A program made the position numbers and the translations under genes. A DNA stretch of 39,494 bases from Ruminococcus sp. (GTDB lineage Bacteria > Bacillota > Clostridia > Oscillospirales > Ruminococcaceae), in contig JAFQHO010000058.1 in assembly GCA_017397925.1 (NCBI GenBank), positions 1 to 39,494 of the forward strand. Direction: 5' to 3'. The notes under the pieces are model-generated. The model did not search any database. It was given only the letters and a program-made list of their open reading frames with translations, and had not been told where the DNA came from. This document shows positions 7,507-39,231 of this stretch, piece after piece. Numbering within the stretch: position 1 is the first letter of the stretch; the number at the start of each line of letters is the position of its first letter.

Positions 7507-8733
7507 TCAAAGGCAGAAAAGCTTTGCAACAGCTTCTTCATTGAGCTTTGAGCCGATTACACAAAGTCTGCCTGTAGTTTCTGCTGTTCCGTAGCGAACA
7601 TCGGGAGTTCCGGGAATATAGTCGAAATGAATCCACTTTCCGTCCTCTGCTGCTACAATTCCCTTTGCTCTGAGGACAATTCCGAATTTCTCCTCGTCTG
7701 CAAGTGACTCTAAAGCCGCTGTGATGGCCTCAACTGTATAAGGTCTTGGAGTTTCAGCGCCCCAGCTTGTGAATACTTCGTCTGCGTGGTGGTGATGATG
7801 CTCGTGGTCGTGATCGTGTCCGCAGCAGCAATGGCCGTCCTCGTGGTCGTGGTGGTGATGCTCGTGGTCGTGATCGTGTCCGCAGCAGCAGTGACCTTCT
7901 TCGTGGTCGTGGTGATGATGCTCGTGGTCGTGATCGTGTCCGCAGCAGCAGTTACCGTCCTCGTGGTCGTGGTGGTGATGCTCGTGGTCGTGATCGTGTC
8001 CGCAGCAGCAATGGCCGTCCTCGTGGTCGTGGTGGTGATGCTCGTGGTCGTGATCGTGTCCGCAGCAGCAATGGCCGTCCTCGTGGTCGTGGTGGTGATG
8101 CTGATGCTCCATCATTTCCTTCAACTCATTTTCAAGAGTATTTTTCTGTGTCATTGCAGCAACTATCTGCTTTCCGTCCAGTTCATCCCAGTCAGTTGTA
8201 ACAATGGGTGCTGTTTCGTTGAATTTGCGGACAATTTCAATTGCCTCGCCTATTTTTTCCTGTGAAAGTCCTGCTGTATGGCTGAGAATTACACAGCTTG
8301 CGTGTTCAATCTGGTTATTGAAGAATTCGCCGAAATTTTTCTGATACATCTTACACTTCTTAGCGTCAACAACTGTTGTAAATCCGTCAAGGTCAACATC
8401 GTGACTGTCGATTTTGCGTACAGCGGAGATAACATCGCTGAGCTTGCCAACGCCGGAAGGTTCGATAATAATACGGTCAGGTTTATATTCTTCAAGCACC
8501 TGTACAAGTGCCTTGCCGAAATCGCCCACAAGACTGCAGCAGATGCATCCCTGGTTCATTTCGGTAATCTCAATTCCTGCATCCTTGAGAAATCCGCCGT
8601 CAATACCTATCTGTCCGAATTCGTTTTCGATAAGTACAAGCTTTTCACCGTTATAGCCTTCTTTGATGAGCTTTTTTATAAGGGTCGTTTTTCCTGCTCC
8701 CAGAAAACCCGAGAAAATTGTTATTTTTGTCAT
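7507..8733 (-). CDS. CobW-family GTPase (putative zinc chaperone) with His/Cys-rich repeats
   Basis: G3E GTPases of the COG0523/CobW group hydrolyse GTP to insert or deliver metals. The 408-residue protein has Walker A GFLGAGKT (9-16), the metal-binding CxCC motif at C63, C65 and C66, and a C-terminal CobW_C domain (about 315-408). Between them, residues 212-311 are five copies of a 20-residue unit rich in His (8-9 per copy) with a CCC triplet. This suggests metal storage or buffering, most likely zinc or possibly nickel or cobalt; the exact metal cannot be read from sequence. It is first in a unit with the CobW-DUF1980 fusion and proC. A consensus promoter and an upstream palindrome could provide metal control. 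Confidence 0.9.
   Translation of the reverse strand: MTKITIFSGFLGAGKTTLIKKLIKEGYNGEKLVLIENEFGQIGIDGGFLKDAGIEITEMNQGCICCSLVGDFGKALVQVLEEYKPDRIIIEPSGVGKLSDVISAVRKIDSHDVDLDGFTTVVDAKKCKMYQKNFGEFFNNQIEHASCVILSHTAGLSQEKIGEAIEIVRKFNETAPIVTTDWDELDGKQIVAAMTQKNTLENELKEMMEHQHHHHDHEDGHCCCGHDHDHEHHHHDHEDGHCCCGHDHDHEHHHHDHEDGNCCCGHDHDHEHHHHDHEEGHCCCGHDHDHEHHHHDHEDGHCCCGHDHDHEHHHHHADEVFTSWGAETPRPYTVEAITAALESLADEEKFGIVLRAKGIVAAEDGKWIHFDYIPGTPDVRYGTAETTGRLCVIGSKLNEEAVAKLFCL
7801..8100 (-). repeat. Five 60-bp tandem repeats encoding a His/Cys-rich metal-binding tract
   Basis: Five units of exactly 60 bp lie head to tail inside the CobW gene. They differ at only a few positions; copy 3 has Asn for His and copy 4 has Glu for Asp. 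Each unit encodes HHHH, DHE(D/E)G, HCCCG and HDHDHE in order. The near identity suggests recent expansion by slippage or unequal recombination, so copy number may vary between strains. Confidence 0.97.
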
Positions 8734-9127: not shown

Positions 9128-9151
9128 GAGGGCGGAAATCACTCCGCCCTC
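9128..9151 (-). terminator. Probable terminator of the CBM-diguanylate cyclase gene
   Basis: A perfect 9-bp stem, GAGGGCGGA (9128-9136) and TCCGCCCTC (9143-9151), lies 8 nt after the stop codon at 9159. The T-tract on the minus strand is short (TTTATG), so termination may be partial. The plus-strand side carries a better T-run. Confidence 0.6.
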
Positions 9152-9158
9152 AGATTTT

Positions 9159-10820
9159 TTATTTACGTGAAAATTGTTCATTTTCAGCTTTGATTTTCTG
9201 CTTGTGTGCATACATTTCTTTGTCGCATTGAGCTATTATTTCAGTAATTGACGGATATTTTTCTTCGTCGTACTGCGCAAATCCACTGGCTACCATAAAC
9301 GGATAGCCCTTGTCAATTTTGCTTTCATTTTCCATTGCTTCAAGTATCTTTTCAGATATAGGATTTTCAGCCATACATACGAATTCATCTCCGCCTATTC
9401 TATATACCTTACCTGATTTTCCAACTATTTCTTTCAGAATATCAGCACAGCGGATAATCGCTGCATCTCCTGTTTTATGGCCGTGATTATCATTCAGATA
9501 TTTAAGGAAATTCACATCACAAAGTGCATAATACAGCTTTTTACACTGTTCTGTATCAGCATTGAGCTCTTTTATCCGCTGCTCATATGCGTTTCTGTTG
9601 TATGACCCGGTCATTGCATCCTTAGAAACAAGCTCCAATGCTTCATTCTTCTTTTTGACACGCTTGTAAATAACTCTGATTATTACTATAAGAAAAATAG
9701 CAATTACAATGCTGCAAAGTGCTATTATTATATTTCTGATATTTTGTTCTTTTTTCATCACTGCAGCTTTGGCTACAGTAACATTATCAACATAATAGGA
9801 CATTGTATCATTCTTTGTAAGCTGCTTTCCTTCTTCAACGTTATCAGTCTGTATATAAAGACATACATTCTGCGCATCTTCGGGAATTGTATAATATCCC
9901 TCGATTTTTGTCCATTTGCCCTTTTTTACAGATTTAGAAGAAATCAGATTGTATACTCCCACTCCATTTTCGCTGTACTGCAGTTCCATTCTGAAAATGT
10001 GCGAATCTTCATATTCAGCTCCGTTATACATAACATATGCCGAATAATAATAGCTTTCACCCTTAGCCACCCTGTTGGAAATATTTACCATAGGTCCGTT
10101 CCAGGCTTTTGTTCTGTTGGTTGCATAAATGGAGTGTGTACCTGTTTTACTGTACTCATCAGTATGAGCCACTGTCATATCGCCTCTTGCACTCCAGCCG
10201 TCAAAATCGCCTTCAAAATCCATTACAAATTTATCTTCGGTTTTCGCAGGCTCAGTATCTGCCGCATTATTGCTTTCACCAAGAATATAAAAATCATCAA
10301 TTGAAAAATTTACATTATCAGTGCTGCACTCTATATAAACCAGTGATGACAGCGCATCTTCCGGTATCGGTATTGTACCTGAAAGATTAACCCAGTTATT
10401 CGGTTCTATTTCAGCTGTTGCAATCTGAGTAAAGCTGTCAACACCGTAACTGTCCTGCGTTTTAAGTGTAAAGGATATACTCTGCGCGCCACTGCTCTCA
10501 TGATAAACCCAGCCATTGAATGTGTATTCCTGTCCGGGCTGAATTAAATCACTGCAATTGTAAGAAGGCCCCTCATATGCCATCTTACGATTGGCTGTTT
10601 TAAGACTTGTTTCGCTCAAATGGCCGTTAGAGTTGTCAATATGCAGTTCACAATTGCCAAACGGCATCCACTTGCCGGCTTTTCCATCTTCGAAATCACT
10701 ACCTACAATAATTGCCGGTTCCTGCGTTGAGACATCGTCTGAAAATGCAGTAAATGGAAGTGATGAATTGATAAATGCCAAAAATGTAATAGCGGAAATC
10801 AATAGTTTTTTAACTTTCAT
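9159..10820 (-). CDS. Membrane diguanylate cyclase with two extracellular CBM-like domains
   Basis: The 553-residue protein has a signal peptide or N-terminal membrane anchor (residues 1-27) and two beta-sandwich modules resembling CBM4/9/22 carbohydrate-binding domains (about 35-190 and 205-360). The modules show the pattern DFE.G..W, long polar strands, then (V)DNV/IDDF. A membrane helix (about 362-387) and a C-terminal GGDEF domain (about 400-553) follow. The GGDEF domain looks active: DAMTGSYNR, CDVNFLKYLND and GGDEF at 476-480. No RxxD inhibitory site precedes the motif. The product should make c-di-GMP in the cytosol in response to a ligand outside, probably a polysaccharide. The ATG at 10820 follows GGGTGAG, which lies inside the longer GTG frame. 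It is divergent from an EAL gene. The CBM family is judged by eye. Confidence 0.85.
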   Translation of the reverse strand: MKVKKLLISAITFLAFINSSLPFTAFSDDVSTQEPAIIVGSDFEDGKAGKWMPFGNCELHIDNSNGHLSETSLKTANRKMAYEGPSYNCSDLIQPGQEYTFNGWVYHESSGAQSISFTLKTQDSYGVDSFTQIATAEIEPNNWVNLSGTIPIPEDALSSLVYIECSTDNVNFSIDDFYILGESNNAADTEPAKTEDKFVMDFEGDFDGWSARGDMTVAHTDEYSKTGTHSIYATNRTKAWNGPMVNISNRVAKGESYYYSAYVMYNGAEYEDSHIFRMELQYSENGVGVYNLISSKSVKKGKWTKIEGYYTIPEDAQNVCLYIQTDNVEEGKQLTKNDTMSYYVDNVTVAKAAVMKKEQNIRNIIIALCSIVIAIFLIVIIRVIYKRVKKKNEALELVSKDAMTGSYNRNAYEQRIKELNADTEQCKKLYYALCDVNFLKYLNDNHGHKTGDAAIIRCADILKEIVGKSGKVYRIGGDEFVCMAENPISEKILEAMENESKIDKGYPFMVASGFAQYDEEKYPSITEIIAQCDKEMYAHKQKIKAENEQFSRK

Positions 10821-10835
10821 TTTTCTCACCCGAAT

Positions 10836-10913
10836 CTTAAAGCATTGTCATACAAAGCACGTATTAGCTTTGTACATTGTGATTAGTACCTTTAAACCTG
10901 CTCTTCACAGAGC
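10836..10913 (-). promoter_or_regulatory. Structured leader element of the diguanylate cyclase mRNA
   Basis: Between the promoter and start codon the RNA can form a closing stem (10890-10895 with 10837-10842), an internal loop with ACAATG on both sides, and a perfect 8-bp stem TACAAAGC/GCTTTGTA (10867-10874 with 10851-10858). A further 5-bp hairpin lies at 10900-10913. The closing stem ends a few bases before the ribosome site. This is riboswitch-like, but it does not show the conserved c-di-GMP-I or c-di-GMP-II motifs I know. Confidence 0.4.
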
Positions 10914-10943
10914 TGCATTAAGTGTATTTTATTAAAGTCCCTT

Positions 10944-10965
10944 AAAAAAATTGCTACTTCAGCAA
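10944..10965 (-). terminator. Terminator-like hairpin early in the diguanylate cyclase leader
   Basis: On the minus strand a 5-bp stem TTGCT/AGCAA with a 5-nt loop is followed directly by TTTTTTT. It sits about 25-45 nt after the predicted transcription start, so it could attenuate the transcript. The stem is short. Confidence 0.4.
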
Positions 10966-10996
10966 CATATTCTTACCCATTTTTATAATTATATAT

Positions 10997-11025
10997 ATTA
11001 TAACACATTTTTCAGTAATTGTCTA
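10997..11025 (-). promoter_or_regulatory. Promoter of the CBM-diguanylate cyclase gene
   Basis: TAGACA (11020-11025) and TATAAT (10997-11002) on the minus strand have a 17-nt spacer. This predicts a leader of about 170 nt. The rest of the intergenic region, 11026-11208, is AT-rich and holds no recognised gene. Confidence 0.75.
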
Positions 11026-11208
11026 TATAAAATCATAAAAAATATCAAATATTTTGTAAATTTATATCATATATGTATAATATTTTTCCTTATTTACACT
11101 CCATTGAATTTTGATAAAAAAGTTAATTCAATATGCTGAAAAAAACATCATTTTAATTGTATATTTTGCACCATTTTTTAACATTTTGTAACGTTTTTTC
11201 AGAATATC

Positions 11209-11237
11209 TTGAAAAAAAATTTAGACTATGGTATAAT
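11209..11237 (+). promoter_or_regulatory. Extended -10 promoter of the EAL gene
   Basis: TTGAAA (11209-11214), a 17-nt spacer and TATAAT (11232-11237) preceded by TGG. The leader is about 80 nt and contains a small nested inverted repeat (TTCAAG at 11285-11290, CTTGAA at 11306-11311) just upstream of the ribosome site AAGGTG. Confidence 0.8.
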
Positions 11238-11325
11238 ATTAATAGTATAAAAATACTGAATTATATTTCCGAAAAAATAAACGCTTCAAGGTTGATAACC
11301 CTAAGCTTGAAATGAAGGTGAAAAA

Positions 11326-13023
11326 ATGAATTGCTATGACTACGATACGCACTTTACAAAACTATTTTCGGATTTTATATATGATATGGAGAAAATTCCA
11401 CCTAATATCGAACACCCCGAGGTTTTCAGATCTGTTGCAAAAATCTGCAAGTTTCTAAGAATTTCTGAATTTACGGCTTCTCTTATGGAAAGTCCGGAGG
11501 TTTCTGATAACAATCCGCAGTATCATGAAACGACTTTTTTCTCCGAAGGTGAATCTGACAATGATTTATCAATTACAATTATAAAAGATACTCCCGGTGG
11601 TTTAGCAAAATTTATTGCTTCTCCTTACAAAAATTCTGATGTCTGGAATGATGCTGAAAAAGAAAAAATCCATATGTTTCTTACTACTTTCTTTATTTTC
11701 AGCAGCAGGGCAAGAAACTTTTCAGTTTCTAATTATCTGATGTATCACGATGAAGCACTGGGTATTTACAATGTAAAATTTCTTGCCAGAAAGATATCAG
11801 AGCTTCTTGCTGAGAACAAGGCTGTTGGAAATGTCTGTTGTCGCTTTAATCTGAGAAAATTTTCTCTTGTCAATAAGATTCTTGGAAGAAAAACAGGAAC
11901 TGTTGTTATGAAAAGATTTGTTTTAAGATTAAAGGAAATTGCAGGAGATGACAGTTATTTGTGCCGACTCGGAGGAGATAACTTCCTTATGCTTCTCCCT
12001 GAAAACAAAATCCACGATGTAATCAATTTTCTTTCAGGCTCAGATGTCGAAACAGGTAAAGAGGGCAATGAATATATCAGAGTTTCTGCAAGAGCAAGTT
12101 TTCTTCATATTACTGAGGATTGTCACACTACATCTGATATTATCGACAGAACAACTCTTGCACTTAATATGCTCAGAGAAACTCCTGGCAGTCTGCATTT
12201 CATATATGATGAAAAAGCAAGAAAAAAAGAAGAAAATATGCGTATGGTTGAGGAAAACTTCCTTAATGCAATAAGAAATGAAGAATTCCTTGTATATTAT
12301 CAGCCAAAAGCTGAGCTCCACGATTATTCTCTTTGCGGCGCCGAAGCTTTATGCCGCTGGAAACACAACGGTGAAATCATTCCTCCCGGAGCATTTATCC
12401 CAGTCCTTGAACAAAGCAGTCATATCTGCACTCTCGATATGTATATGCTTGAGCATGTATGTCGCGATATCAGAAGATGGCTTGACATTGGATTAGACGT
12501 TGTAAGAGTATCTGTAAACCTTTCAAGAGTAAATCTGGGCAATCAAAAGTTAGCAGAACAAATTATAAGCACAATCAGAAAATATGACGTACCATTCAAG
12601 TATATTGAAATTGAAGTTACAGAAACAACATCAGAAGTAGATCTTCACGAGCTTATAAAAGTTGTAAAGAAACTGCATGAAGTTGGAATATGCACATCAA
12701 TTGATGACTTTGGTGTAGGATATTCTTCATTGAACCTCATACGTGATCTGCCTTGGGATACTATGAAAATCGATAAGAGTTTCCTCCCTCTCGCAGGTGA
12801 AATGTACAACGATCAGAAAAAAACTATGCTTAAGTATGTTATTGCTATGGCTCAGGATCTCGGTCTTGAGTGTATGATGGAGGGTGTTGAAACAACCGAG
12901 CATATAGCTATTCTCAAAGAAAACGACTGCTACTACGCACAAGGATTTTGTTTTGATATGCCCCTTCCTGTTAACATTTTTGAAAACAGGCTGAGAGACA
13001 AAGTACTTACTTTAAAACAATAA
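11326..13023 (+). CDS. Cytosolic GGDEF(degenerate)-EAL c-di-GMP phosphodiesterase
   Basis: The 565-residue protein has no membrane segment. Residues 1 to about 140 form an unassigned, possibly GAF-like, sensor region. A degenerate GGDEF domain follows, with GGDNF at 216-220 and LGIYN in place of LTGxxNR, and is probably inactive or regulatory. An EAL domain (about 310-560) then keeps the key residues: E340 in GAEAL, NLSR, the Glu of EVTE, DDFG, KIDKSF, EGVET and QGF. This predicts hydrolysis of c-di-GMP to pGpG. The ATG follows AAGGTG by 6 nt. It is divergent from the CBM-diguanylate cyclase, so the two may set c-di-GMP level jointly. Confidence 0.92.
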   Translation: MNCYDYDTHFTKLFSDFIYDMEKIPPNIEHPEVFRSVAKICKFLRISEFTASLMESPEVSDNNPQYHETTFFSEGESDNDLSITIIKDTPGGLAKFIASPYKNSDVWNDAEKEKIHMFLTTFFIFSSRARNFSVSNYLMYHDEALGIYNVKFLARKISELLAENKAVGNVCCRFNLRKFSLVNKILGRKTGTVVMKRFVLRLKEIAGDDSYLCRLGGDNFLMLLPENKIHDVINFLSGSDVETGKEGNEYIRVSARASFLHITEDCHTTSDIIDRTTLALNMLRETPGSLHFIYDEKARKKEENMRMVEENFLNAIRNEEFLVYYQPKAELHDYSLCGAEALCRWKHNGEIIPPGAFIPVLEQSSHICTLDMYMLEHVCRDIRRWLDIGLDVVRVSVNLSRVNLGNQKLAEQIISTIRKYDVPFKYIEIEVTETTSEVDLHELIKVVKKLHEVGICTSIDDFGVGYSSLNLIRDLPWDTMKIDKSFLPLAGEMYNDQKKTMLKYVIAMAQDLGLECMMEGVETTEHIAILKENDCYYAQGFCFDMPLPVNIFENRLRDKVLTLKQ

Positions 13024-19752: not shown

Positions 19753-20400
19753 TTAAATAAATCCGTTTGATGAAAGAAAAGACATATCAATTCCGCTGTT
19801 TTTCGAGTTTTCAGCAGGCTTCATAAGCTTTTCCACATATTTTCCTATAATATCATTTTCAAGATTAACTGTCTGTCCCTTTGTTTTTGTCGAAAGAATT
19901 GTCATTTCAGCTGTATGCGGTATAACAGACACGCTGAAATCTCTGTCAGTAACTTTTGCGACAGTAAGACTTATGCCGTCAATGGCAATCGAACCTTTTT
20001 CTACGATATACCGCATAATATGAGCATCCGCGGAGATAGTATACCATACAGCAATGCCGTCGTTTATTATATCTGTTATAACTCCCGTACCGTCAATATG
20101 TCCTGACACGATATGACCGCCAAAGCGCCCATTTGCCGCCATAGCACGTTCAAGATTTACCTTACTCCCCTGCCGCAATTCGCCCAGGGATGAACGGCTG
20201 AGGGTTTCATTCATAACATCAGCCTGAAATATTTTACCATCAGTTTTCGTTACTGTAAGGCATACACCGTTTACAGCGATACTGTCACCGAGGTGAACAT
20301 CTTCAAGAACTTTTCGCGCCTCAATCACTATGAAAGAATTACTGCCATTTCGCTGTATATTCTTTACTGTACCAATTTCTTCAATTATCCCTGTGAACAT
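19753..20400 (-). CDS. ribE: Riboflavin synthase, alpha subunit
   Basis: Riboflavin synthase dismutates two lumazine molecules to riboflavin plus the pyrimidine precursor. The 215-residue protein has the canonical start MFTGIIEEIG and two lumazine-binding repeats: the first has VNGVCLTV and a GGHIVSGHIDG junction, the second has IDGISLTVAKV and VIPHT. Its start overlaps the end of ribD by 20 nt, which suggests coupled translation. Confidence 0.96.
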   Translation of the reverse strand: MFTGIIEEIGTVKNIQRNGSNSFIVIEARKVLEDVHLGDSIAVNGVCLTVTKTDGKIFQADVMNETLSRSSLGELRQGSKVNLERAMAANGRFGGHIVSGHIDGTGVITDIINDGIAVWYTISADAHIMRYIVEKGSIAIDGISLTVAKVTDRDFSVSVIPHTAEMTILSTKTKGQTVNLENDIIGKYVEKLMKPAENSKNSGIDMSFLSSNGFI

Positions 20401-21487
20401 TCTTCACCCTGCTTTCTATGAGAATATCGCCGCCAATGGTCTTAATCTGCCTGTCGTACAGCATAACACATTCATCGGGAGATGCCGCACCAATTCCCGA
20501 AACTGCTGTGGGAGCATCTTTTCCGCCGAATATTTTCGGAGCAATATATGCCTGCACTTTATTGACGATGCCCGATTTCAAAGCCGACCAGTTAAGCTGT
20601 CCGCCGCCCTCTAATAAAATGCTGTCGATTTTATAATCTCTGCCAAGAACAATCATAAGCTGTTTTAAATCAATATGACCATCCTTTTCAGGTACCCTCA
20701 CAATCTGACAGCCCATTGCTTCAAATTCCGATGTATCGCCATTTGAGCAGACGATAATTGTAGGTATCTCTTTAGCAGTGCGGACAATATTACTGTCAGG
20801 AGGTGTTCTCAGATTTGTATCGCATATGATACGGACAGGATTTTTTCCACCCTCAATATGACAGGTGAGCATTGGATTATCAGCAAGAACTGTTCCCACT
20901 CCCACCATAATTGCCATATGCTTCAAACGGTCGCGATGAACGTTTTCACGTGCCGCCTCCCCTGTTATCCATTGAGATTTTCCTGTATAACAGGCAATTT
21001 TACCATCCATTGTCATTGCGTATTTCATTGTTACAAAAGGCGTTTTTTCAGTAATATAATGGAAAAAAATCTCATTCAAACTGTCACATTCAGCTTTTAA
21101 AATACCCTCTGTGACTTCAATTCCATTTTCACGGAGAATTCTTGCGCCTTTTCCTGCTACAAGAGGATTAGGATCGGAGGAGCCTATAAATACGCGGCTT
21201 ATTTTATGCTCGATTATAGCCTCTGTGCAAGGAGGAGTTTTGCCATAGTGACAGCAGGGTTCAAGAGTAACATAAATATCTGCACCCGTACAGTCAATTC
21301 CACGGCTGTCGCAGTCTGCGAAAGCGTTTCTTTCAGCGTGAAGCTCACCGCATTTACGATGATAACCTTGTCCGATTATCTCACCGTTTCTGACGATTAC
21401 AGCTCCCACCATAGGATTTGGATTGACATATCCTACACCCTTTGCGGCAAGTTCAAGTGCCTTTGTCATAAATATTTCGTGGGACAT
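20381..21487 (-). CDS. ribD: Bifunctional deaminase/reductase of riboflavin synthesis
   Basis: RibD performs the second and third steps of the GTP branch. The deaminase half (about 1-145) has H50 and E52 in HAERNAF and the zinc cysteines in TLEPCCHYGKTPPC. The reductase half (about 146-368) starts at FVTMKYAMTMDGKIA and has ILLEGGGQLNWS. The 368-residue length is normal. It is the first gene after the FMN riboswitch terminator, with AGGAGG 5-6 nt before the ATG at 21487. Confidence 0.97.
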   Translation of the reverse strand: MSHEIFMTKALELAAKGVGYVNPNPMVGAVIVRNGEIIGQGYHRKCGELHAERNAFADCDSRGIDCTGADIYVTLEPCCHYGKTPPCTEAIIEHKISRVFIGSSDPNPLVAGKGARILRENGIEVTEGILKAECDSLNEIFFHYITEKTPFVTMKYAMTMDGKIACYTGKSQWITGEAARENVHRDRLKHMAIMVGVGTVLADNPMLTCHIEGGKNPVRIICDTNLRTPPDSNIVRTAKEIPTIIVCSNGDTSEFEAMGCQIVRVPEKDGHIDLKQLMIVLGRDYKIDSILLEGGGQLNWSALKSGIVNKVQAYIAPKIFGGKDAPTAVSGIGAASPDECVMLYDRQIKTIGGDILIESRVKNVHRDN

Positions 21488-21538: not shown

Positions 21539-21562
21539 TACAATCTGTCTTATCAGCAGATA

Positions 21563-21694
21563 ATCCTCTCACATCCGGACTTATGCAGAATATCCGCACT
21601 CACCGTCGGCCTCGGAATTTCACCGAGTCAACCGCTGAAATAAGCGGCTCACAGGCTTTACTGTCGGTAGGGAATTTCACCCTGCCCCGAAGAT
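21563..21694 (-). ncRNA. FMN riboswitch (RFN element)
   Basis: The minus strand reads the conserved RFN pieces in order: ATCTTCGGGGCAGGGTGAAA, TTCCCTACCGACAGT, AAAGCC-GTGAGCC, a variable hairpin (CCGCTTATTTCAGCGG), GGTTGACTCGGTGAAATTCC, GAGGCCGACGGTGA, then AGTCCGGATGTGAGAGGAT. These form the six-helix FMN aptamer. With FMN bound, the downstream terminator should form and shut off the riboflavin operon. The predicted transcription start lies right at the aptamer 5' end. Confidence 0.98.
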
Positions 21695-21703
21695 TACACT
21701 CCT

Positions 21704-22879: not shown

Positions 22880-25594
22880 ATGAAATTCAAGAAAAGAAAG
22901 GCTCTTTCTGCCATCTCACTGGCAATTGCGGCGACATTGACAATCCCCTATACGCCTTTGTCGTCTTTTAACGCATCCGCAGTTGGCGAAGGACTCTACA
23001 TCAACGAAATATGTGCAAAAAACAGCACTCATACCGCCCCTGACGGAAACTGCTACGACTGGATTGAAATTTACAATGGCAGTTCATCATCTATTGATTT
23101 AAGCGGCTATGGATTATCAGACAAGGAAACCGAACTTTTCAAGTTCACTTTCCCTGCAGGTGCTTCAATCGGCGCCGGTCAGCGACTTGTCATTTATTGC
23201 GATTCTGTTATGCCCGAAATAAACGGTACATATACTGCATCCTTCGGACTTTCCACAAGCGGCGAAACTGTCTACCTTACAGCTCCTGATTCAACTGTAT
23301 GCGATACTGTCGAATTTCCTGCCCTTGCAAGTGATCAGTCTTTCGGCAGATACCCTGACGGCTCTGATTCATTTGCTACAATGAATATGTCGCCAAATCA
23401 GGCAAACAGCGAAAGCGGCGTGCTGAAAAAAGATGTTGCAGAGCCTGTTTTCTCACAGGAGGGCGGATTCTATGACAGCGGTTTCAATCTTAACATAACC
23501 GTCCCCGACGGCACAACTGTCTATTATACAACTGACGGCAGCGTTCCCGACAGCAGTTCACAGCGTTACAGCTCCCCTATTGCTATTTCCGATATTACAT
23601 CGCAGCCTAACTATCTCAGTGCAAGAACTGACATAAGAGGCGGTACAGTAACTGCTCCTACTGACCCTGTTGATAAGGCTATGGTTATTAATGCCGTTGC
23701 CATTGACCAGAACGGCAATGTCAGCGACACTGTTTCTGCGGCTTATTTCATCGGCTACGGCAACCGCGCTTCTTACTATCAGAATGTAAAGGTTATTTCC
23801 CTTACAACTGATGAGGACAACCTTTTTGACCACGATAAAGGAATTTATGTCCTCGGCGCTACATATGACGAGTGGAAAAACTCCAACGGCGGCGGTGCAT
23901 TTGCTCAGGATTGGCAAATTCCGGGAAACTTCTCCAATAAAGGCAGAGAATGGGAACGTCCTGCAATTATGCAGATTTACGAGGACGGACAGGTAAAGCA
24001 CACTCAGAGCATAGGTATACGTATTCACGGCGGCGCTTCAAGAAGCCATATGCAGAAAAGCTTTAACATCTATGCACGTGCTGACTATGGCGTATCAAAG
24101 TTTGATTTCAACCTCTTTGACGGCGATTTAAGAAGCGAATATACAGGCAAGAAAATCAAGGAATTCGATAGCTTTATGATAAGAAACGGCGGAAATGATG
24201 CAAGTGCTACCCGTTTCCGTGATAAGCTCAATCAGGCACTTGTATCTGACCGTGATATGCTTCAACAGGCTATGAAGCCCTGCATTGTATTTATCAACGG
24301 CGAATACTGGGGACACTATGAGATTACCGAAAAGCTCAGCGATGACTACGTTGAAGCTCATTACGGCATTGACAAGAACGATGTTTGCTTAATCAAAAAT
24401 GGCGAGCTGGAAGAAGGTACTGAATCTGATTTTGCAGAGTGGGAAAGCCTTAATAACTGGTTCAAATCCAACGATTTATCACAGGAAGCTAATTATAATC
24501 AGCTTTGCGAAAAGATAGATATGCAGTCGTTTATAGACTATATGTGTGCTGAAATCTACTACGCAAATATGGACTTCTCCCCCAATAATACAGCTATGTG
24601 GAAGTCTACTTCAATTTACCCCGATAACGAATGGGGCGACGGAAAATGGCGTTTTATCCTCTTTGATACAGAGTACAGTACAGGTCTTTACGGAGCTATG
24701 GGTGCCTCTGCCAACCATAACACATTCAATATGGTTATGCAAAATCAGGGATTTATTTCAGAGCTTTTCAAAAATTCACTGAAAAATGATACATTTAAGC
24801 GACAGTTTGCTACCACATTTATGGATATGGCAAACGAGAACTTTAACAATGATAAGATTCAGGCTATGATTGAGGAGCTTACAAATGAATACCGCGAAAT
24901 GACTATTGATACCCTCGACCGTTTTGAGCCAAAGAATGTCACTCAGACACCCGAAACTCCTCAGAACCCTCAAAATCCCGGCGGATTCCCTAACTGGGGT
25001 GGAAACTGGGGCGGCGGTAACTGGGGCGGAAATACTACACAGCAGGATAACCCCACAATTTTCAACAACGAGGTTGACGCAGTTAAGTCCTTCTACCGTG
25101 ACAGAAATCAGAATGTTACACAGCAGCTTCGCAATTCCTGCAGTTTAAAAGGAAATAAGGTAAATCTTACTCTCAGCAATGATTCATCAAAGGGTACTGT
25201 TATCCTCAACACAATTACACCTACATTCAAGGATAACAAGTGGACTGGCGCATACTACACCGATTATCCTGTTACAGTTACCGCAAAGCCTCAGGCCGGA
25301 TTTGCTTTCTCTCACTGGGAAACATCTGACGGTAAGACATTCAACTCCCCTACCGCTGAAATTTCACTTACTGCTGATATGACCGTTACAGCTGTATACA
25401 CTCAGTCACAGGGCGGAATTATTGGCGATATCAACTCAGACGGTACTGTATCTGCCGCTGACCTCGTGCTTCTTTCAAAGTATCTCCTCGGTACTGAGAA
25501 GAATATCAACGGCACTCAGGCTGATGTTTACACCGACAACAGAATTGACGTTTACGATATGATTAAGCTGAGAAAAATTGTTTCCGGTATTTAA
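22880..25594 (+). CDS. Secreted CotH-kinase protein with lamin-tail, chitobiase-C-like and dockerin domains
   Basis: The 904-residue protein has a signal peptide (about 1-34), a lamin-tail domain (about 37-150, INEICAKN and YDWIEIYN), and a chitobiase C-terminal-like fold (about 190-280, VYYTTDGSVPD). A CotH kinase-like domain (about 310-640) follows, with GIRIHGGASR, KSFNIYAR, FMIRNGGND, FINGEYWGHYEITEK and FDTEYSTG. Then come a Gly/Trp/Asn linker, an InlB-type bacterial repeat (about 795-845) and a C-terminal type I dockerin (about 848-904). CotH in Bacillus spore coat is an atypical protein kinase. CotH-dockerin proteins are reported from Ruminococcus cellulosomes, but their substrates are unknown. 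The dockerin differs from those of the two GH9 enzymes here. GGAGTG lies 8 nt before the ATG. Confidence 0.9.
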   Translation: MKFKKRKALSAISLAIAATLTIPYTPLSSFNASAVGEGLYINEICAKNSTHTAPDGNCYDWIEIYNGSSSSIDLSGYGLSDKETELFKFTFPAGASIGAGQRLVIYCDSVMPEINGTYTASFGLSTSGETVYLTAPDSTVCDTVEFPALASDQSFGRYPDGSDSFATMNMSPNQANSESGVLKKDVAEPVFSQEGGFYDSGFNLNITVPDGTTVYYTTDGSVPDSSSQRYSSPIAISDITSQPNYLSARTDIRGGTVTAPTDPVDKAMVINAVAIDQNGNVSDTVSAAYFIGYGNRASYYQNVKVISLTTDEDNLFDHDKGIYVLGATYDEWKNSNGGGAFAQDWQIPGNFSNKGREWERPAIMQIYEDGQVKHTQSIGIRIHGGASRSHMQKSFNIYARADYGVSKFDFNLFDGDLRSEYTGKKIKEFDSFMIRNGGNDASATRFRDKLNQALVSDRDMLQQAMKPCIVFINGEYWGHYEITEKLSDDYVEAHYGIDKNDVCLIKNGELEEGTESDFAEWESLNNWFKSNDLSQEANYNQLCEKIDMQSFIDYMCAEIYYANMDFSPNNTAMWKSTSIYPDNEWGDGKWRFILFDTEYSTGLYGAMGASANHNTFNMVMQNQGFISELFKNSLKNDTFKRQFATTFMDMANENFNNDKIQAMIEELTNEYREMTIDTLDRFEPKNVTQTPETPQNPQNPGGFPNWGGNWGGGNWGGNTTQQDNPTIFNNEVDAVKSFYRDRNQNVTQQLRNSCSLKGNKVNLTLSNDSSKGTVILNTITPTFKDNKWTGAYYTDYPVTVTAKPQAGFAFSHWETSDGKTFNSPTAEISLTADMTVTAVYTQSQGGIIGDINSDGTVSAADLVLLSKYLLGTEKNINGTQADVYTDNRIDVYDMIKLRKIVSGI

Positions 25595-26297: not shown

Positions 26298-26351
26298 TAG
26301 ATGATAGTAAAATTAGGAGATGTATCCAAAATTTATGAGAGGAGTTTTACT

Positions 26352-28715
26352 ATGTTAAAGAAATTTATTTCCGGAGCTGTTTCGGCTGCAATGCTGGCTG
26401 CTTCAATCGGTGGTACTGTAATTCCCACAGCTACAGCTGCCGAAAATCCAAACTATGCTGAGGCTTTACAGAAATCACTTTTCTTCTATGAGTGTCAGCA
26501 GGCTGGTCCGCTTCCTGAGTGGAACCGCGTTGAATGGCGTTCAGATTCAACTATGATTGACGAAATCAAGGGCGGTTGGTACGATGCCGGTGACCACGTT
26601 AAATTCAATATGCCTATGGCTTATACCGCTTCTGTCCTTGCCTGGGGACTTTATCAGTATCCCGATGGTATTGAAAGCTGCGGTGAAATGCAGAACTATG
26701 TCAATAACCTTGAATTTGTTATGGATTACTTTGTAGACTGCGACCTCGGTGACGAAATTGTTTTCCAGGTTGGTAACGGTACAATTGACCATACATGGTG
26801 GGGACCTGTTGAAATGTACCAGTACGGTATGGAGGATTCAGGCACTTCCTATGAGGAGGCTCGTCAGACATATAAGGCTTCTGAAGGATGTTCCGCTGTA
26901 TTCGGCGGTATGGCTGCTGCTCTTGCTTCCGGTTACTGCGCTCTTGACGGTAGAATTGATGAAGGTAAACGCGCTGAATACCTTGAACACGCTGAAAATA
27001 TCTTCAAGATTGCAGCTACAAATCCCGGAAATGATACATATAACGACAGTAACGCATCAGGCTTCTATCGTTCCAGCCACTTCTACGATGAGCTTTTCTA
27101 TGCTGCAAACTGGCTCTATATCGCTACAGGCGATAAGGCGTACCTCGACAAGGCTGCAAGCTATATCCCTAACCTTGATAAGGAGCTTGGTCAGGATGTT
27201 CTCAAATACACCTGGTGTATGTGCTGGGATGACGTAATGCAGGGCGCTATGCTCCTTTATGCTATCAACAGCGGCGATCAGACTTATGTTAACCACGTTA
27301 AAAAACACGTTGAATATCTCACTAACGATACAGAAAAGGTAAACGGCAAGCTGGCATATATCAGCAACTGGGGTTGTGCAAGATATGCAACTGCTGCTGG
27401 ATTTATTGCTGCTGTTGCTTGTGATACAATTCTTGCTGATACAGATACATCTTCATATGAACAGTTCTACGAGGATCAGATCAACTACGTTCTCGGTGAT
27501 AACCCCGATGGTCAGAGCTTTGTTGTAGGCTATGGTGACAAGCCTGCTCATAATGCTCACCACAGAACAGCTCACGGCTCATGGAAGAATGATATCTATA
27601 TGCCTGAGCAGAACAGACACATCCTCTATGGAGCACTTGCCGGAGGTCCTAATCAGGACGGTTCTTACGAGGATGACAGAAACAACTACATCAACAACGA
27701 GGTTGCTACTGACTATAACGCAGGCTTTACAGGTCTTCTCTGTAAAATGATTGACAAATACGGCGGTAAGGGTGATCCTACATTCCCTCAGCCTGAACAG
27801 CACGACGGCCCCGAGTTCTTCATCGAGTGTCTTTCAAAGGGCGGCGATTCCTCAGGTGTTACAATCAGCTTCAAGTTTGTAAACCATTCAGCTTGGCCTG
27901 CAAGAATTCAGGATAACCTTTCATTCAGATACTATATGGACCTCAGCGAGGTAATTGCAGCAGGTCATAACCCTGAAAATCTCGTTATCCGCTGCGATCG
28001 CGACCAGTCTGCTATGTACGCTTCAAGAGGCGTAAAGGCTGCTGAAATCTCCAAGCCAATCCAGTATGACGGCAATATCTACTACATTGAAGTAACTCTC
28101 CCCGACGGACGTGCAGTTATGCCTGTTTCCGAGGGTATGCAGAAGTGTGAAATCCTTCTTGCTCTTGTAATGCCCGACTACGCAAGCGGCTGGGATTCTT
28201 CAAACGATTTCTCTTACGAAGAAATTGCAAATGCTAAGGGTACAACCGATGCAGCAGGAACTGTAAACGGAATTGTTTCTAAGTATGTTCCTGTATATAT
28301 CAACGGCGAACTTTACTACGGTGAAGAACCCGACGGTACATCCGCTGACGGTAATTCTTCACAGGTTACAAAACCTGTTGCTCCCGTTGTAACTACAACT
28401 CAGAAGCCCGATGTTACTACAAAGCCCACAACAACTGCTACAACTCCTGTTACAGAAAAGCCAACTGAGAACACTCCTTCCGGCGGTACAGCTGTTACTC
28501 TCTACGGTGACGCTAACGTTGACGGTGTTGTAACTATGGCTGACGCTGCTTCTATTTATCAGTCACTGGGTAATCCCGATAAATACGGTCTTTCAGAGCA
28601 GGGTGCTGCTAACGCTGACTGTAATAAGCCGGGAAATGGTATTACTGCTGCTGACGCTCTTGCTGTTCAGAAGTTAACTGCAAGTATTATTTCAGAGCTT
28701 CCTGAAATGGCATAA
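26352..28715 (+). CDS. Cellulosomal GH9 cellulase with CBM3c and dockerin
   Basis: The 787-residue precursor has a signal peptide (about 1-33), a GH9 catalytic domain (about 34-470), a CBM3 module (about 485-645, ending YVPVYINGELYYGEEP), a Thr/Pro linker (about 660-705) and a dockerin (about 712-787). Catalytic residues are visible: D78 and D81 in YDAGDH, HHRTAHG, and acid E450 in NNEVATDYNAG. The GH9-CBM3c order is that of processive endoglucanases (theme B), which cut cellulose chains stepwise. The ATG at 26352 follows GAGGAG by 8 nt and gives the signal peptide, so the longer frame from 26301 is rejected. It acts outside the cell, docked to scaffoldin cohesins. Confidence 0.95.
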   Translation: MLKKFISGAVSAAMLAASIGGTVIPTATAAENPNYAEALQKSLFFYECQQAGPLPEWNRVEWRSDSTMIDEIKGGWYDAGDHVKFNMPMAYTASVLAWGLYQYPDGIESCGEMQNYVNNLEFVMDYFVDCDLGDEIVFQVGNGTIDHTWWGPVEMYQYGMEDSGTSYEEARQTYKASEGCSAVFGGMAAALASGYCALDGRIDEGKRAEYLEHAENIFKIAATNPGNDTYNDSNASGFYRSSHFYDELFYAANWLYIATGDKAYLDKAASYIPNLDKELGQDVLKYTWCMCWDDVMQGAMLLYAINSGDQTYVNHVKKHVEYLTNDTEKVNGKLAYISNWGCARYATAAGFIAAVACDTILADTDTSSYEQFYEDQINYVLGDNPDGQSFVVGYGDKPAHNAHHRTAHGSWKNDIYMPEQNRHILYGALAGGPNQDGSYEDDRNNYINNEVATDYNAGFTGLLCKMIDKYGGKGDPTFPQPEQHDGPEFFIECLSKGGDSSGVTISFKFVNHSAWPARIQDNLSFRYYMDLSEVIAAGHNPENLVIRCDRDQSAMYASRGVKAAEISKPIQYDGNIYYIEVTLPDGRAVMPVSEGMQKCEILLALVMPDYASGWDSSNDFSYEEIANAKGTTDAAGTVNGIVSKYVPVYINGELYYGEEPDGTSADGNSSQVTKPVAPVVTTTQKPDVTTKPTTTATTPVTEKPTENTPSGGTAVTLYGDANVDGVVTMADAASIYQSLGNPDKYGLSEQGAANADCNKPGNGITAADALAVQKLTASIISELPEMA

Positions 28716-36701: not shown

Positions 36702-39191
36702 TTACTTTGCAGCAAACTCTGTAATAATCTTAGCAGCAAACTTCTGAATTTCAATTGCATCAGCTGCAGTAATTCCAACCTTACCGTCAACATCTGCATT
36801 AGCTGCACCCTGCTCGGATAAACCGTACTTGTCGTAGTTTCCGAGGTGCTGGTAAATAGAAGCTGCGTCTGCCATAGTTACAACGCCATCATTATTAGCA
36901 TCACCAAGGAGTGTAACAGGAACAGAAGGAACTACAGGAGGATCTGTAGGCTCTACAGGATTTGTTGGCTCTGTTGTAGGAGGCTCTGTAGGCTGCTGAA
37001 TATCTCCACCCTGCTCACCTGCTGTTTCAGTAAGTGAAAGCAGATATGTAAGTGGTGAGTTCCAGTAAATTGTAATTTCGTTTGTAGAATAGCTCTCAGC
37101 ATTATCAACCCAGCACTTTGCAGGTGCAGAATCAATACAATATGCAAGTGCTGCGTTATCCTCAAGATTCTGGTTTACACCGCCAACGAGCATACCCTTC
37201 ATACACTCGCCTACAGCCATTGAAGGTCTGTGGTGAGGAGCAACAGGAGTTGCTGTACCATAACCGGTTACGAAACAAGTACCAAGTGGGTTTGTTCCAA
37301 GGAGGTAGTTGAGCTGTGCCTGTGCAGCATCAATATATTTCTGCTCACCTGTGATATCATATGCCTGAGCAAGAATGATACCATAGTTAGCAATTGTCAT
37401 ATTGCTTCCCCAGTGATATGATTCAGTTGCAACACCATATGCCTGTTCAGCTGAAATTTCAGCAAAATCATCTGCCTGTGCAATAACATTGCTCTTAGCA
37501 TTGCCATATGCAACAGATTCCTTATCTACGCCCTTCATTGTAAGGAGTGCGATATTACCGTAATCACCTACTGTAGACCAGTCAAGACCCTTTTTGATCT
37601 TAGTGGAAGCAGCATCTGCGTCTGCAAGATAGCTTTCTTCACCTGTAGCACGGTACATCTGTGCAGCTGCCCAGTAAAGCTCATCCTTAGGATTTCTATC
37701 ACCGTATTCGCCTGTTACTACATCGTCAGGATTGCTGTATGTAACTTCGGGATTAGCCTTAGCCCATTCATAAGCCTTCTTAGCAGCAGCAAGACACTTA
37801 TCTGCAAATGCAGAATCAATATCCTTATAGAACTCGTAAGCCATAGCCATTGAAGCAGCAAAATCAGCTGTTGCAGTTGTAGACTTAGGCATTACAATAA
37901 GTGGCTTTGTTTCCTTTTCAGGCATTACATATCCTGGGAATGTATCACAAGTTACTTTATGGTACACACCGCCGTCTGTAGAATCCTGCATCTTAAGCAT
38001 CCACTCAAGCTCATAACGTACTTCATCAAGTACATCAGGAGTGCCATTTCCACTTTCAGGAATTCCAATATTGTCGCTGTAAGCTGAAGGATCAGCCTGG
38101 TAAGCGTAAAGAACGTCAGCAACAGCCTTAGCAGCAGCTACAATGTATCTTCCGTAGTCACCAGCATCGTGCCAGCCGCCTGAAACTTCAATCTTGTTGC
38201 TTGTTCCATAGATTGTAGCCTCAGTGTTGTGACAAGCTACGTGACCGAATTTATCGTCTTTAACTTCTGTTCCGCATCTCTGGAGATAAAGCATTCTTAC
38301 TGAATCATCAAGGAGATTTTTATATACATTTTCACCGATTTCAAATGCATAGGAATCATCAAGGCCCTCTGATTGGATTATATATTTACCCGGAGCTGTA
38401 ACAGATGAGAAATCGCCTATATAGTTTGTTTCCTCAGCGGATGAATTCTCAATGGGGCCAGACATTTCGCCTGTGTAAACTACTTCTTTTGTATCAGCAT
38501 TTACTACAGAGAAGCTTCCACCCTCAGTTTTTCTGAATACAGCTGTCTTCTTTGCGTCAGGTCTGTATCCAACCTGGTTGATGTTAATTGGAATTTCATA
38601 TGCTTCTGTAGCGCTGTAATCAACGTTGCTATCATCAATAAGCTCAAGTGTTACATTATCAAAATAAAGTGTATGTTCAGGAAGATCCTCAGGATCCTGC
38701 GTTTCTACACCACAATTGAAGCAGAGCTTGGACATAATATCTGTTTCTTCTTCCATTACAAACTCTTTCTTAAAAGTCTGCATTTCTGATGTAACATCAC
38801 AACCCATCCATACATATGAACGATAATCACCGCCGTCCATCTGGATCATACCTTCGATGTAACGATCAACTGTTGATTTAACATCAAAGCTGAAACGGTA
38901 AACACCGCCCTGATAAAGCTTTACTGTAGGCTGATTAAGCTGTACGGAATATGAAACCTGACCACGGTTAAAAACTGTAAGTGCAAGCATTCCGTCCTCA
39001 CCTTTAAGTGTATATTTACCGCCTGATACATTATAAACACCCCAGTTCTTTACACCAGTTTCAAAATCAGGGTTTCTGATAATGTTTTCAGCAGCCATAA
39101 CAGGAGCAGCTGTAACTACAGGCATAGCTGAACCCATAACAACTGCAGCTGCAATAGCAGCTAAACAACGCTTGAAATTGCTCTTCTTCAT
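36702..39191 (-). CDS. Cellulosomal GH9 glucanase with N-terminal CBM, Ig-like domain and dockerin
   Basis: The 829-residue precursor has a signal peptide (about 1-34) and a CBM4/9-like module (about 35-190, NPDFETGVKNW to LYFDNVTLEL). Next come a CelD_N Ig-like domain (about 198-290, INQVGYRPDAKKTAVF), a GH9 catalytic domain (about 295-735), a Pro/Thr linker and a dockerin (about 765-829). Catalytic residues are D342 and D345 in WHDAGDYG, HHRPS, and acid E705 in YSTNEITIYWNSPL. CBM4-Ig-GH9 is the cellobiohydrolase/endoglucanase layout (CbhA/CelK type). The ATG at 39191 gives the signal peptide and follows GAGGA; starts at 39209 and 39224 place that site inside the frame. Confidence 0.95.
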   Translation of the reverse strand: MKKSNFKRCLAAIAAAVVMGSAMPVVTAAPVMAAENIIRNPDFETGVKNWGVYNVSGGKYTLKGEDGMLALTVFNRGQVSYSVQLNQPTVKLYQGGVYRFSFDVKSTVDRYIEGMIQMDGGDYRSYVWMGCDVTSEMQTFKKEFVMEEETDIMSKLCFNCGVETQDPEDLPEHTLYFDNVTLELIDDSNVDYSATEAYEIPININQVGYRPDAKKTAVFRKTEGGSFSVVNADTKEVVYTGEMSGPIENSSAEETNYIGDFSSVTAPGKYIIQSEGLDDSYAFEIGENVYKNLLDDSVRMLYLQRCGTEVKDDKFGHVACHNTEATIYGTSNKIEVSGGWHDAGDYGRYIVAAAKAVADVLYAYQADPSAYSDNIGIPESGNGTPDVLDEVRYELEWMLKMQDSTDGGVYHKVTCDTFPGYVMPEKETKPLIVMPKSTTATADFAASMAMAYEFYKDIDSAFADKCLAAAKKAYEWAKANPEVTYSNPDDVVTGEYGDRNPKDELYWAAAQMYRATGEESYLADADAASTKIKKGLDWSTVGDYGNIALLTMKGVDKESVAYGNAKSNVIAQADDFAEISAEQAYGVATESYHWGSNMTIANYGIILAQAYDITGEQKYIDAAQAQLNYLLGTNPLGTCFVTGYGTATPVAPHHRPSMAVGECMKGMLVGGVNQNLEDNAALAYCIDSAPAKCWVDNAESYSTNEITIYWNSPLTYLLSLTETAGEQGGDIQQPTEPPTTEPTNPVEPTDPPVVPSVPVTLLGDANNDGVVTMADAASIYQHLGNYDKYGLSEQGAANADVDGKVGITAADAIEIQKFAAKIITEFAAK

Positions 39192-39231
39192 AATAATCGG
39201 TCCTCTCATTTTTATTTTTTTCATTTTATTT

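Follow-up and report, generated by a model that had tools for sequence, protein, structure and literature searches.

How fibre-degrading gut bacteria recognise a plant polymer underfoot and set attachment is an open question. It is raised here by two divergent genes in a contig of Ruminococcus sp. (GenBank assembly GCA_017397925.1, JAFQHO010000058.1, positions 1 to 39,494), the whole 39,494 nucleotides of which are referred to as the window. According to the original prediction, one gene encodes a membrane-bound cyclase that makes cyclic diguanylate (c-di-GMP) and carries carbohydrate-binding modules (CBMs) outside the cell, while the other encodes a phosphodiesterase that may act as its brake. 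Two divergent open reading frames are present where they had been placed (Table 1). The first probably encodes a transmembrane diguanylate cyclase in which a xylanase-type tandem of CBM22 modules is the putative sensor. There is also reasonable, if incomplete, confidence that this cyclase responds to xylan or xylan fragments.

The cyclase and its CBM22 modules

The Pfam matches of the cyclase are CBM_4_9, found twice (expectation value, E, 7.9e-44), and GGDEF (E 1.5e-21). Hydropathy gives one strong membrane helix (windows starting at residues 362-374) and a weak hydrophobic stretch at the N-terminus compatible with a signal peptide. Both analyses agree with the predicted layout of signal peptide, two CBM-like modules, membrane helix and intact GGDEF domain, and the joining of a CBM to a cyclase is, as was pointed out, unusual. 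Translation more probably starts at the ATG at position 10820, which GGGTGAG precedes, than from the GTG (10829). In an alignment of 23 full-length cyclases, consisting of the window protein and 22 relatives 35-68% identical to it, the GGDEF motif is invariant, as are the residues that we take to hold metal and substrate. None of the 23, window protein included, has an RxxD at inhibitory-site spacing before GGDEF, which bears out the predicted lack of a feedback site.

The Pfam family CBM_4_9 presumably spans CBM4, 9, 16 and 22. At E 0.001, the only solved structures matched by the sequence of the ectodomain are chains of CBM22 xylanases, and its modules are predicted to adopt the CBM22 beta-sandwich fold (VIA-align 2, run on the candidates of Foldseek). 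The comparison with CBM families that had been suggested thus identifies both as true carbohydrate-binding modules, of family CBM22. Cellulose is unlikely as the ligand because CBM22 is a xylan family. A cellulose-type CBM (CBM3, CBM4) was considered and rejected: by sequence only the CBM22 xylanase structures match at this threshold, and a control CBM_4_9 taken from this window gave a different result.

The xylan cleft is presumably formed by Arg25, Trp53, Tyr103, Tyr136 and Glu138 (C. thermocellum CBM22-2 numbering), and the letters at these positions were checked in the alignment. In the membrane-proximal CBM22-2 of the cyclases, the equivalents of Trp53 and Tyr103 are kept in 23/23 proteins and those of Arg25 and Tyr136 in 22/23. 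The window protein has all four, with Gln in place of Glu138. The four columns rank in the most conserved 12-18% of the module, and the Glu138 column at 30%. Since Gln also occupies this position in six of six second modules of GH10 xylanases of the genus, its presence alone is no argument against binding. In the membrane-distal CBM22-1 of the window protein, Arg25 is replaced by Phe and Trp53 by Tyr, and Glu138 is kept. With the cleft largely kept in one module and eroded in the other, CBM22-2 appears to be the likelier xylan binder. In a Caldicellulosiruptor enzyme, CBM22.2 is reported to bind xylan and CBM22.1 to be too unstable for testing (PMC8280721).

No gap interrupts residues 356-403 in any of the 23 proteins, even though the sequence within and next to the membrane is variable. 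Between the two modules, 6 of the 19 linker columns contain gaps. In the predicted model a single helix (residues 355-401) runs from the end of the last CBM22-2 strand to the GGDEF domain, and a helix of fixed length would suit the passage of a signal across the membrane in a dimer. As CBM22-2 sits on the membrane helix, the sensor would lie at the membrane surface, probably inside the Gram-positive wall, where it would meet soluble fragments rather than fibre. Soluble xylan fragments may be the likelier ligand, and the direct sensing of attached polysaccharide that had been proposed is doubtful.

Table 1. Features of the two divergent genes, in window positions (+, forward strand; -, reverse strand)
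Feature	Position	Strand	Description
Cyclase A gene	9159..10829	-	556 residues counted from GTG; signal-peptide-like N-terminus, CBM22-1, CBM22-2, membrane helix, GGDEF
Phosphodiesterase gene	11326..13023	+	565 residues; N-terminal domain without known family, degenerate GGDEF, complete EAL; cytosolic
CBM22-1	10269..10721	-	Residues 37-187; membrane-distal module
CBM22-2	9765..10235	-	Residues 199-355; membrane-proximal module
Membrane helix, single	9666..9734	-	About residues 366-388, within predicted continuous helix 355-401
GGDEF domain	9189..9620	-	Residues 404-547; motif at 9381-9395
Terminator-like hairpin	9128..9151	-	Directly 3' of cyclase gene; strong; 10-pair stem (9-pair when read on +)
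Cyclase A promoter-like site	10997..11025	-	TAGACA-17-TATAAT with TG
EAL gene promoter-like site	11209..11237	+	TTGAAA-17-TATAAT with TG
N-terminal domain of EAL protein	11326..11730	+	~135 residues; common to paralogous EAL proteins of the genus
Degenerate GGDNF motif	11971..11985	+	Invariant in 5/5 EAL orthologs, window included
EAL domain	12253..12960	+	Residues 310-545; catalytic residues complete

The divergent phosphodiesterase

The second protein matches EAL (E 1e-56) and, partially, GGDEF (E 5.4e-10) in Pfam, and has no membrane helix by hydropathy. E340, N398, E430, D460, D461, K481, E519, E522 and Q539, which presumably have catalytic roles, are invariant in five of five EAL orthologs, the window protein among them. 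It is thus, as predicted, a cytosolic protein with a degenerate GGDEF domain and complete EAL residues. It carries a further N-terminal domain that had gone unremarked, for which (and for that of a relative) no Pfam, PHROGs or credible solved-structure match was found; by eye it appears GAF-like. The same domain recurs in other EAL proteins of the genus of ~560-610 residues, often several per genome (19 aligned).

Of the 125 genus genomes, five have a near ortholog of this protein (55-60% identical), namely the window's own and G169, G084, G065 and G167, and each is divergent from a cyclase of the window's type (A). In the last four a gene with a PocR domain (Pfam PF10114, 4/4) lies between, in line with the EAL gene. 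The window is without it, and tblastn found no credible remnant of a PocR gene there (best E 0.073, placed elsewhere in the window). The flanks vary further: other genes intervene on both sides in G084 before shared genes resume, the cyclase side differs in G065, and in G167 neither side matches beyond the gene that follows EAL. These differences indicate that the cyclase/EAL group was kept while surrounding genes were inserted or exchanged. The gene after EAL in three of the five loci encodes a protein with 11 hydrophobic windows, whose match to a putative glycosyltransferase family is weak (E 0.0037, far below cut-off). The A-type cyclase gene of G167 (L076:4695-6368) contains one in-frame TGA, either a sequencing error or the mark of a pseudogene.

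Conservation of the two genes as neighbours, which had been expected, is seen in 5 of the 12 genus genomes with cyclase A and fails in the other 7. The cyclase and the phosphodiesterase could instead be independent genes whose adjacency is inherited synteny, a possibility that deserves serious weight without being favoured here and that is compatible with the reading of the cyclase given above. Besides the seven A cyclases without an EAL neighbour, this explanation is favoured by the phosphodiesterase's membership of a large family (some match at E 1e-40 in 120/125 genomes of the genus), by its position behind a PocR-domain gene in four of five loci and by the separate TG-extended promoter-like site of each gene. 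That of the cyclase, TATAGACA...TGNTATAAT, precedes the gene in the window and in three orthologs; such sites are consensus matches, of which 29 were found against 19.6 in shuffles. The 173-base cyclase leader shows no conserved RNA (folding z -0.62, no Rfam match). However, all five near EAL orthologs lie beside a cyclase A despite the differing adjacent genes in G084, G065 and G167. The phosphodiesterase may serve as the brake, but the seven unaccompanied cyclases and the PocR-domain gene preceding it in four of five loci indicate that it is not obligatory.

Distribution, proposed response and output

Full-length matches to the CBM22-cyclase were found in 13 of the 125 genus genomes, the window's own included, as 12 copies of A and 13 of a paralog, B, with both in 12 genomes. 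Many of these assemblies are incomplete. In the window's genome A and B share 37% identity, and across the carriers the two genes are adjacent on the same strand in 5/12 genomes (G063, G171, G064, G048 and G157). In a tree of the modules all A cluster with all B at each module position, so the tandem appears to predate the A/B duplication; the second module falls beside the second modules of GH10 xylanases with moderate support (89/76). In draws from the order (394 genomes) and the phylum (398), with at most three candidates scored per genome, the fusion was found in the window's genome only, although these are samples and absence is unproven. Beyond the window's genome, the order draw gave one row (G028, model positions 4-349) and the phylum draw two (9-362 and 10-364, both GH10 xylanases), all of which end before the cyclase part. 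Among plasmids, none of 1074 records with a match reaches 80% coverage. A contig scan of named genomes used peptides of this cyclase family only, and an independent CBM22-cyclase fusion could escape it. Among the matches listed, 10 of 80 loci are near-full-length and the other 70 match from residue 305 onward. All ten, from nine genomes, are Ruminococcus records, in keeping with the genus named in the original prediction. Where a source is given, it is goat rectum, water buffalo colon, water deer cecum or, from the label Lapin, rabbit.

In UBA1780 and SIG544, the gene directly upstream of cyclase A encodes two CBM_4_9 modules (E 7.1e-36 and 1.3e-40), followed not by GGDEF but, after one hydrophobic stretch near residue 365, by a charged, low-complexity, disordered-looking tail ending PFDGF. 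The simplest reading of these two loci is a receptor-like cassette with changing inside halves. This third paralog (L095:7138-8703 and L097:7087-8760) adjoins A-type cyclases, with a LacI-type regulator gene divergent upstream. In G000, G084 and G065, a GH11-CBM22-dockerin-esterase gene lies just downstream of B in the same orientation (gaps of 95, 260 and 180 bases). Tentatively, gut Ruminococcus might have a small family of receptors in which the CBM22 tandem is an interchangeable cassette for sensing polysaccharide. A, B and in some species the third protein would jointly read xylan and set the c-di-GMP level, opposed by a phosphodiesterase arm under PocR guidance. If true, the family would be a direct plant-polysaccharide-to-c-di-GMP receptor for fibre attachment.

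In the mechanism proposed, xylan fragments or xylo-oligosaccharides from the cell's own xylanases would diffuse into the wall and bind mainly CBM22-2. Binding would alter the geometry of a cyclase dimer, and the continuous helix that runs from the last CBM22-2 strand across the membrane would determine the register in which the two GGDEF domains meet, and so switch the synthesis of c-di-GMP in one direction or the other. In the absence of a product-inhibition site, c-di-GMP would be limited by hydrolysis, of which the divergent EAL protein could be one local source. The messenger might then act on a type IV pilus through an MshEN-type PilB and so tune attachment to fibre.

The window's genome has 15 GGDEF matches. 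Four kinds of c-di-GMP receptor were searched for in it, and the only candidate is this PilB, which carries MshEN and T2SSE domains (Pfam) and is clustered with PilT-, PilD- and pilin-like genes, named by eye. The cluster (L176:1-14000, G000:C15) has several pilin-like genes. Both motif copies of PilB fit the relaxed pattern of PMC5013675, and type IV pili are reported to bind cellulose in R. albus and to be expressed in R. flavefaciens (PMC13234629). The pilus is the best, though putative, candidate for the output, and the cellulosome output originally suggested is unsupported. Riboswitches of types c-di-GMP-I and -II and PilZ proteins were considered as outputs and none was found in this genome (90% completeness; strict filters for c-di-GMP-I). 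Although 14 control genomes gave no c-di-GMP-I match, the search was positive in 13/125 genus genomes, so that absence has some weight; for c-di-GMP-II the 14 controls were also matchless and the absence carries none.

Of the 16 c-di-GMP-I matches in the genus, four were inspected. Three precede a large secreted fn3 gene, of M60-peptidase type where the gene is complete, and the fourth lies at a contig end. The loci are L183:2120-7452 (fn3 and M60-peptidase) and the orthologs L182:3-2276 and L180:1501-3085, one with a marginal dockerin match. Such a gene is present in 4/13 fusion carriers (6 of the 15 genomes searched, a set that includes two non-carriers) and was not found in the window's own assembly. 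The same assembly encodes four cyclases with LacI-like sugar-binding domains (Peripla_BP_3; L001, L002, L003 and L005), and a protein (L014) in which a LacI-like domain is combined with a sub-threshold GGDEF and a DNA-binding domain of AraC type.

A number of observations weigh against the mechanism proposed above. The fusion is confined to 13/125 genus genomes, though CBM22 enzymes occur in others; B has its xylanase neighbour in only 3/13 cases, and most A cyclases lack the EAL gene. Neither a PilZ protein nor a c-di-GMP-I riboswitch offers an output. PilB misses the strict MshEN pattern of two 24-residue motifs with a 5-residue spacer: its spacer is 7, its first motif has RIG, and its second starts KFG and ends K. 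Its Pfam MshEN match (residues 62-147) lies outside the motif stretch. Comparison of the tandem with 4xup gave a root-mean-square deviation of 24.6, which leaves the two-module arrangement unconfirmed. In the cleft, Glu138 of CBM22-2 is replaced in 23/23 proteins (17 Gln, 5 Arg, 1 Gly), including Arg in 5/13 and Gly in 1/13 of B. CBM22-1 lacks Arg25 in 23/23 (22 Phe, 1 Leu), and its Trp53 is replaced in all A (9 Tyr and 1 Phe of 10). B retains this Trp53 in 13/13, and Glu138 of CBM22-1 is retained in 18/23.

The losses in the cleft would be expected if the tandem were structural or vestigial, folding and dimerising but reading no ligand, with the cyclase constitutive or reading wall stress or proteolysis. 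CBM22 modules were originally described as thermostabilising domains of xylanases. This explanation is nevertheless unlikely, given that the Arg, Trp and two Tyr of the CBM22-2 cleft are kept in 22 or 23 of 23 proteins, the relatives being 35-68% identical to that of the window, and rank among the module's most conserved columns. It is quite improbable that the ectodomain recognises an envelope or biofilm glycan of the cell itself and reports the state of the envelope rather than plant fibre: a sensor directly on the membrane and the protein encoded after EAL, with its weak glycosyltransferase match, would fit, but the nearest solved relatives of the ectodomain are xylanase modules, and B in some genomes adjoins a xylanase. 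It is highly improbable that the CBM tethers the cell to fibre fragments, with the cyclase responding to the force of attachment instead of to a ligand, for although CBM22 can bind insoluble xylan (CBM22.2 of the Caldicellulosiruptor enzyme, PMC8280721), the ectodomain has no long spacer across the Gram-positive wall and the length of its membrane linker is invariant.

Elsewhere in the window, three genes bear dockerins (22880-25594, 26301-28715 and 36702-39224, of CotH type, GH9-CBM3, and GH9 with CBM_4_9), and the genome thus has cellulosome-type enzymes. An FMN riboswitch (21559-21698, reverse strand) precedes riboflavin genes (from the ribD-like gene at 20381-21487 onwards). At 7789-8102, 5.2 copies of a 60-base repeat within a CobW-type GTPase gene encode a His/Cys-rich stretch, which is probably metal-binding.

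Relation to known systems

In Fibrobacter succinogenes, c-di-GMP on cellulose is reported to be ~2.5 times higher than on glucose, and the cue of the GGDEF proteins was unclear to the authors (PMC6851124). The part of a review of c-di-GMP sensory domains that covers sugars describes sensing through the phosphotransferase system and through predicted DISMED2 or periplasmic-binding-protein domains, and names no CBM (PMC8846402). No paper joining CBM22 with GGDEF was found in a library of open-licence papers. The fusion places the link from polymer to c-di-GMP in one testable protein, for which a candidate ligand can be named. Through it the cell may translate plant xylan in its surroundings into a signal for attachment or lifestyle.

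The two enzymes and the candidate output each have known counterparts. The best matches of the second protein are GGDEF-EAL phosphodiesterases (DibA, DosP and the solved 'Motility regulator' 4rnh), although the NCBIfam matches among them are below curated cut-offs; it differs from them in its N-terminal domain without known family. The PilB shares its MshEN and T2SSE domains with MshEN-type pilus and secretion ATPases, but not the strict c-di-GMP motif. Xyn10C of Paenibacillus barcinonensis (4xup) and the GH10 xylanases of Ruminococcus likewise have two successive CBM22 modules, with the same fold and the same cleft residues in the second, but there the tandem is joined to a GH10 catalytic domain, whereas here it leads into a membrane helix and a cyclase.

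7TMR-DISMED2 cyclases such as NicD of Pseudomonas aeruginosa combine an extracytoplasmic jelly-roll, tied to carbohydrate sensing, with an inner GGDEF (PMC8544897, PMC8846402). They have seven membrane helices, a different domain family and no polysaccharide-binding module. The window cyclase falls outside this group, having one helix and, in Pfam at E 0.1, no DISMED2 match but CBM_4_9 instead. RsgI anti-sigma factors of Clostridium thermocellum have extracellular polysaccharide-sensing modules, CBM3 among them according to a cited title, which a membrane domain connects with a regulator inside the cell (PMC6056542). Their output is a sigma factor and their CBM of another family, whereas here a CBM22 tandem is paired with a second messenger, and GGDEF takes the place of the cytoplasmic anti-sigma domain, so the cyclase is not an RsgI protein either. 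Extracellular polysaccharide sensors (RsgI) and jelly-roll GGDEF proteins (NicD) are thus already known, and what is new here is that a true CBM22 tandem, of xylanase type, stands on a cyclase with a single membrane pass.

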